A DNA stretch of 64,000 nucleotides from Quercus robur. Its lineage: Eukaryota; Streptophyta; Magnoliopsida; Fagales; Fagaceae. The position numbers and the translations under genes were made by a program. Below the pieces are notes generated by a model, which had not been told where the DNA came from, ran no database searches, and saw only the letters and a list, made by a program, of their open reading frames with translations. Location of the stretch: positions 50,406,354-50,470,353 of the forward strand of contig NC_065536.1 of NCBI RefSeq assembly GCF_932294415.1, read 5' to 3'. Below are positions 46,896 to 48,103 of the stretch, piece by piece (position 1 is the first letter of the stretch; each line of letters starts with the position of its first letter).

Positions 46896-47902
46896 TAGGG
46901 GTGGCAATTTTTATCCATATCCATGAACCCGCCCATGACCCACCTTATTTGGATAAGTCTTAACCCAACCCATTTGAATATTTGGGTTAAATGGGTAAAG
47001 GCCCATTTGGTTATTTAATTAGATGGGTCTAAATGGATAAATCCACTAATACCCACTAAACCCATCTAAAATTTATATTTAAATAAACCCAAATACGAGA
47101 ATCTGAATTTCTCTTTCTCACGCTCCCGCACCGCCAATTTCTCCAACCGCGCATGCTTGCGAGACTTAGCATCCTCGTCGCGCTCATGGTTTCTATCATG
47201 TCGATCTCGGTCTCGTTCCCAATCTTTGTCACGGTCACGGTCGTGCCTGTCACGGTCACGATCATGATCACAGTCGCGGTCTCGGTCGCAATCGCGATGG
47301 AGATCGGAATCAAAGGGTTTGCTTAGATCGTTGCTGTTGTGGTGGTTGTGGTTGTTGGAAGTGGAGGAAAGGAGGCTTTGACGGATTTTGTTGATTTCAT
47401 CGACTTCTTTTTTATGGCATTTTAGGGCTAAGGCTTCACGTTCCGCTCTGGTTAGGAAAATGAGATTCACGGCGGAGCTTGTGACGTTGACGACGGAAAC
47501 ATCTTCGGTTAAACTACGTTTCATGGGCTGAGTTCTAGCTCTAAATGGACTATTAGGCTTTTTGAAAGTTTTGGGGATCATGTTCTTTTAATTTTATGAA
47601 GAAAAAAAAAGATTAAATTATATTTTGGATAAATTTTTATTTAAGTGTGCCTTTGGAAGAAGTTGATTTGCCTTATGCTTCTTTTTTTTTTTTCAGTTTA
47701 TTTATTTATTAATTTTTCAAATAATATAAATCTTAACTTATTAAAAAATGAGTTAGTTTTTAACTACTCGTTACACATTTAACATAAAATTTATCAAAAA
47801 TTATATATATATTTTTTATAAATATTATATAAAGAAGTTACCAGAAATTGTATAATCCAAAGGCACTCTTATAATTTTGATCTGAGTGGTTGGTACTATT
47901 TG

Positions 47903-47943
<41 letters not shown>

Positions 47944-48103
47944 GCTTGGTTAAGTGCAACTAGTTTTAGAGGGGTTATATTGGGTTAAATGAGTTGGGTG
48001 GATAATGGATAATTAATTTATATATAAACGGGTCATAAATGGATAAATGGATAATTACATACCCAACTCATTTATGACCCAACCCGCCCATTTGTCACCT
48101 CTA
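46896..48103. mobile_element. Non-autonomous hAT element carrying a captured host gene fragment (Pack-type)
   Basis: A perfect 8-bp TSD, GTTATAGT, stands at 46888-46895 and 48104-48111. The ends TAGGGGTGGCAATTT and (reverse) TAGAGGTGACAAATG are inverted, with further inverted similarity in the ACCCGCCCAT and GGATAAATGG subterminal words. The length is 1,208 bp. No transposase is present. The interior holds, on the minus strand, the N-terminal coding part of a PRP28/RH21-like DEAD-box helicase gene (47095-47581), then AT-rich sequence and (GA)n at 47906-47941. Confidence 0.88.
47066..47581 (-). pseudogene. Captured N-terminal fragment of a PRP28/RH21-like DEAD-box RNA helicase gene
   Basis: An intact 171-codon frame starts at an ATG (MIPKTFKKPNSPFRAR). 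It continues with MKRSLTEDVSVV, NLIFLTRAEREALAL and KKEVDEINKIRQS, then a long Asp/Arg-rich stretch (HRDCDRDRDCDHDRDRDRHD and on) and KHARLEKLAVREREKEK. This is the layout of the N-terminal tail of plant PRP28 (U5 snRNP 100 kDa, RH21), a splicing helicase: MKRS, then FLT(K/R)A(Q/E)RE, then an RD/RE-rich domain. All helicase motifs are absent. The frame runs into transposon terminal sequence (YLGLFKYKF) and stops. If expressed it would be a short RS-like basic-acidic peptide. The helicase identity is by pattern only. Confidence 0.7.

Follow-up and report, generated by a model that had tools for sequence, protein, structure and literature searches.

Interleaved DNA of two host genes inside a non-autonomous hAT-type element of Quercus robur

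A chimeric, non-autonomous hAT-like element of 1208 bp occupies positions 46896-48103 of the window (the whole 64-kb stretch of Quercus robur DNA analysed here, which lies on contig C3). Its interior is made of pieces of two unlinked host genes: the helicase gene PRP28/RH21 on C41 and, from C5, the region upstream of a gene for the complex I 20.9-kDa subunit, with the second piece lying inside the first. The search covered 786 Mb of genome in 42 contigs and located both donors as well as at least two further copies of the complete chimera. Most probably (about three chances in four) a non-autonomous hAT-type element took up the two donors during the repair of a break, and the chimera then moved on and is now a decaying passenger.

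Anatomy of the element and its two donors

The features of the element are as follows.

46888..46895, no strand: left 8-bp target site duplication (TSD), GTTATAGT
46896..47094, plus strand: left transposon end, terminal inverted repeat (TIR) TAGGGGTGGCAA
47095..47524, minus strand: PRP28/RH21 coding sequence captured from the ATG onward
47581-47066, minus strand: 171-codon open frame with ATG
47521..47526, no strand: 6-bp microhomology common to both donors at their junction (CCATGA on the minus strand)
47521..47882, minus strand: captured complex I 20.9-kDa upstream region, in sense to the PRP28 frame
47883..47904, no strand: 22-bp filler between captured pieces
47905..47958, minus strand: captured PRP28 5'UTR piece, a CT-repeat, beginning 66 bp before the parent ATG
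47959..48103, plus strand: right transposon end, TIR ...TTGTCACCTCTA
48104..48111, no strand: right 8-bp TSD, GTTATAGT

The first-pass annotation had described a 1.2-kb non-autonomous hAT element with a perfect 8-bp TSD, and the description is accurate: GTTATAGT flanks the element on both sides (8/8). By its 8-bp TSD and short TIRs the non-autonomous element belongs to the hAT superfamily. The TIRs pair at 10/12 positions in the window copy (comparing TAGGGGTGGCAA with TTGTCACCTCTA reverse-complemented) and at 12/12 in two related elements (L018 and L021). The left end is matched once in the 64-kb window at up to three mismatches, by the element itself, and its likeness to other family elements is lost around bases 190-205 of the element. 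The target site lies within a short local repeat, a 40-bp stretch present at 46843-46882 and 48105-48144.

Other parts of the window hold unrelated features. About 10.5 kb from the element, a frame at 34910-36358 (minus strand) matches the complex I 51-kDa subunit (Pfam Complex1_51K, 6.9e-45), and its nearness is presumably a coincidence. A histone methyltransferase frame with SRA, Pre-SET and SET domains in Pfam is found at 7682-9649 (minus strand), which we take to be of the SUVH type. By eye, 39300-43270 (plus strand) holds what is left of a LINE-like reverse transcriptase whose end resembles RNase H.

The 171-codon minus-strand frame begins with an ATG and had been read as the start of PRP28 running out into transposon sequence. 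Its extent and its ending hold, the last 9 codons being transposon end. The PRP28 reading is correct from an internal ATG (47524-47522), where the helicase frame proper begins and the match to C41 DNA sets in, and covers 143 codons. The first 19 codons (MIPKTFKKPNSPFRARTQP) were rejected as helicase, since they are noncoding DNA from upstream of the C5 gene.

The window frame itself was only weakly matched in Pfam (best E 0.12) and in PDB (best E 0.76), so the identity of the helicase was settled through its donor. From the ATG on, the captured piece aligns to C41:5501513-5501973 with 372 of 461 columns identical and 45 gap columns (E about 1e-131; 81% identity at the DNA level). This locus is the intact gene that the first-pass annotation proposed to look for in the same genome: an uninterrupted frame of 727 codons with the Pfam domains DEAD, Helicase_C and DDX23, matching human PRP28/DDX23 in PDB at 1.6e-202 (phmmer). 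RH21 is presumably its plant name. The matches extend well outside the Asp/Arg run, so the doubt that the likeness might be confined to that run falls away. The coding piece runs from parent codon 1 to about codon 153, its Asp/Arg repeat being shorter than the parent's, and ends with codons of about 177-181 (KFRFS). Inside it is a 69-bp deletion at 47110/47111, and the parent has GAG on both sides of the missing stretch.

The second captured piece matches C5:71008310-71008669 (339 of 367 columns identical, 12 gaps; 92%). The donor stretch is 360 bp long and covers -497 to -138 relative to the first in-frame start codon of its gene. The two-exon product of this gene, assembled without the intron, has a match at 4.4e-52 to At4g16450, the complex I 20.9-kDa subunit. 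The order in the element is therefore PRP28 5'UTR, C5 DNA and PRP28 coding sequence. The junction between the C5 piece and the PRP28 start codon carries the 6-bp microhomology; among 100,000 random breakpoint pairs drawn from the two donor regions, 138 shared six or more bases. The 22-bp filler (up to 4 mismatches, ungapped) was found, among the loci examined, only in the three chimera copies. Site II motifs (AGCCCA/TGGGCT) mark promoters of respiratory genes, and one such motif stands at the 3' edge of the C5 piece, identical in all three copies. The hAT type and the N-terminal PRP28/RH21 capture thus stand as first annotated, while the second captured piece, the two further copies and the diverse family behind the same ends had been missed.

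Origin of the interleaved pieces

Interleaved donors and a 6-bp microhomology fit template switching during repair. An internal break in a short hAT-type element, itself non-autonomous and moved in trans by a putative hAT transposase, would have been repaired using DNA of the two unlinked genes. Copying may have begun in the PRP28/RH21 5'UTR, switched to the complex I 20.9-kDa upstream region, and switched back at the shared CCATGA onto the PRP28 start codon. One slip across 69 bp would have followed before copying came back to transposon DNA. Once complete, the chimera transposed at least twice more. It probably now decays as a silent passenger, so that the open frame of the window copy would be inherited and not selected. 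We infer the order of copying and the repair mechanism from the arrangement of the pieces. This course of events does not account for the 22-bp filler.

An unlikely alternative is the model developed for Pack-CACTA and Pack-TYPE elements (Catoni; Gisby and Catoni), in which two related elements at neighbouring insertions move as one together with the DNA between them. According to the text available from PMC8903248, the model has been proposed for Pack-TYPE elements of several superfamilies in maize and rice, hAT included. However, it moves one contiguous stretch, and here the C5 DNA sits inside the C41 DNA. Nor were the further ends that it calls for detected: a repeat scan of the element revealed no second copy of its own ends inside it, and no element ends were found at E 1e-3 in the 8.5 kb around the PRP28 donor or at the two C5 loci, where 9.0 and 9.9 kb were covered. 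With two unlinked donors interleaved, template-switching repair is the better fit. DNA of one gene within that of another, microhomology at one join and the presence of both donors in the genome together make this element a case that separates the two models.

A rather improbable alternative is that the 360-bp C5-like piece was itself mobile or repeated (of MITE origin) and was inserted into an element that already carried the PRP28 5'UTR and coding sequence. The piece contains a 16-bp inverted repeat (47642-47657/47856-47871). In the second C5 region (L010, C5:70722000-70731900) a local array at 70725-70728 kb holds several copies of the complex I 20.9-kDa upstream region, one of them followed by a truncated first exon. 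Given the inverted repeat and the array, part of the C5 piece could once have been mobile. Against insertion as a unit, the match to the donor runs past the inverted repeat on both sides, on one of them as far as the helicase ATG, and six PRP28 5'UTR bases are missing at the capture site. In addition, apart from the three copies the piece has five matches, every one of them on C5, among the 40 of 731 candidates that were scored (others may be missed).

Sister copies and apparent decay

The two other copies of the whole chimera are at C41:21358316 (1295 bp; TSD GCAATAGA/GCCATAGA, 7/8) and C2:29912777 (1304 bp; TSD CTTGAGAA, 8/8). Three copies on three contigs with different TSDs indicate that the chimera transposed after capture. 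Both sister copies (L002 and L003) have the same 32-bp insertion in the PRP28 piece, which shifts the frame, and the C41 copy also has a 1-bp deletion. By eye, the insertion looks like a duplicate of sequence lying further along in this piece. Of the three copies, the window copy alone has the 171-codon frame open.

Between the three copies, corrected distances amount to 0.120-0.137 for the PRP28 piece, 0.037-0.048 for the C5 piece and 0.089-0.133 for the ends; the corresponding transversions per site are 0.017-0.035, 0.020-0.030 and 0.032-0.052. Transversion distances to the donors are alike for both pieces (0.021-0.032 for PRP28, 0.031-0.034 for C5), which is consistent with similar capture ages. 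Transitions account for the extra divergence of the GC-rich PRP28 piece. Most are C>T and G>A, which make up 33/47, 31/50 and 36/51 of the changes from the parent in the three copies. At CpG versus elsewhere these changes number 18/112 vs 15/134 in the window copy and 19/112 vs 12/137 and 18/110 vs 18/140 in the others (raw counts). The bias is as expected of silenced, methylated DNA; the CpG excess is only moderate, and methylation is therefore just one reading of it.

On the terminal branch of the window copy the ratio of nonsynonymous to synonymous changes per site is 0.69 (22/318.7 over 9/89.3), and on those of the two frameshifted copies it is 0.45 and 0.42, in a crude test with small counts (9-13 synonymous changes per branch). 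All ratios are below 1, those of the broken copies included (pairwise range 0.28-0.61), and the pairwise ratios to the parent (0.47, 0.28 and 0.35) include the constraint on the parent gene. On these small counts the window frame shows no sign of constraint beyond that of copies which cannot encode it. Conservation of or constraint on the frame among the copies, as a functional captured gene would display, was not found, and the functional RD-rich peptide suggested at first is not borne out.

It is accordingly very unlikely that the element is a selected chimeric mini-gene, a natural assembly of promoter and coding start in which complex I upstream DNA would drive transcription of a putative RD-rich N-terminal peptide competing with PRP28, or of an RNA down-regulating it: the sense orientation of the C5 DNA, the exactly retained PRP28 ATG, the open frame and the invariant AGCCCA motif speak for it, but the frame is broken in two of three copies, the window ratio is not below theirs, and the capture ends 138 bp short of the donor ATG, so that the donor transcription start may be absent.

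The family and its place among gene-capturing transposons

At least 59 matches to the element were obtained from the 40 scored of 731 candidates. Fifteen further family loci were fetched, of which 13 matched both ends (the right end partially in L022-L024); L026 and L027 were without a right-end match and were dropped. Together with the three chimeras this gives 16 elements, picked mostly for having both ends and not a random sample, which span 1040-1333 bp. Their TSDs are 8/8 in six cases and 7/8 in four, and in the remaining six (L016, L017, L022-L025) the edges as placed are shifted, cut short or unmatched. L016 and L025 have identical flanks and may therefore be one insertion that was duplicated.

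When elements sharing at least 90% of the interior were grouped, 11 interior types resulted. Partial sharing (33-42%) connects L014 with L015, L021 with L019 and L023, and L028 with L020 and L022. Other copies of the hAT ends, with and without the PRP28 fragment, had been proposed as a search target, and both kinds are present in the genome. Besides PRP28, five interior types match gene families: WDR5-like, CCT4, OPT, F-box and ABCB. Ten interior fragments were searched against Pfam and five had meaningful matches. L028 contains WDR5-like WD40 sequence (1.4e-51, WDR5 being backed by a PDB search), and L019 and L023 contain chaperonin pieces (4.5e-22 and 2e-12) that belong to CCT delta, i.e. 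CCT4 (PDB 1.3e-33). L018 matches OPT (8.8e-6, just under the curated cut-off) and L015 an F-box (4e-10). The ABCB transporter piece of L014 was identified in PDB (best 4.7e-6, bile salt export pump; 1.2e-5 for ABC transporter B family members 1 and 19), its Pfam match being at chance level (0.28). The fragments of L016, L017, L020 and L024 had no Pfam match; the interior of L024 is LARP1-like by eye only. No transposase was recognised in the 16 elements among the part of their frames searched against Pfam.

Shared ends with varied interiors look like a gene-capturing (Pack-hAT) family. The window element itself fits the Pack-TYPE (Pack-hAT) class, as it has host gene fragments, identifiable donors and transposition after capture. 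With at least 11 interiors sharing one pair of ends, this genome supplies many junctions on which models of capture can be tested.

Pack-MULEs have a preference for 5' gene pieces; they belong to the Mutator superfamily, and their TSD length differs from that of the element. Like the Pack-MULEs of rice, the element carries host gene pieces in a DNA transposon, is chimeric and was mobile after capture (PMC13317346, in the text available). The same 2026 review states, in that text, that DNA transposons may acquire unlinked gene pieces by an alternative, yet undiscovered mechanism. The Pack-TIRs that Tan et al. (2021) attribute to gap filling or to FoSTeST resemble the element in junction microhomology and in multicopy chimeras that are mobile after a template switch. 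Unlike it, they were described in animals, and the available part of the paper leaves application to plant Pack-MULEs open (PMC8277862).

Gene capture had been called less often described for hAT elements than for Mutator-like elements and Helitrons. This is fair, yet hAT capture is in print in at least the accessible portions of two papers (PMC2528002, PMC8903248). A literature search for non-autonomous hAT elements with captured gene fragments, under those words, returned none, which carries little weight. In grapevine, copies of the hAT family Hatvine-6 share their ends, between which a copy often has sequence of its own with matches to genes (Benjak et al. 2008, PMC2528002, as far as its available text goes). 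The oak family has the same shared ends with differing, gene-matching interiors; Hatvine-6 elements, unlike the 16 examined here (frames partly searched), share a transposase coding sequence. For maize and rice, hAT gene capture was published by Gisby and Catoni (2022). In the available text of that study (PMC8903248), Pack-TYPE/Pack-hAT elements are non-autonomous TIR elements with 8-bp TSDs and conserved ends, with host gene pieces inside and several copies per chimera, as is the element described here. What sets it apart from them is the interleaving of two unlinked donors and the presence of a piece of noncoding upstream DNA that lies in sense. The event is thus of a known type, hAT gene capture, and the element is an informative further case of it, apparently decaying and not a working new gene.
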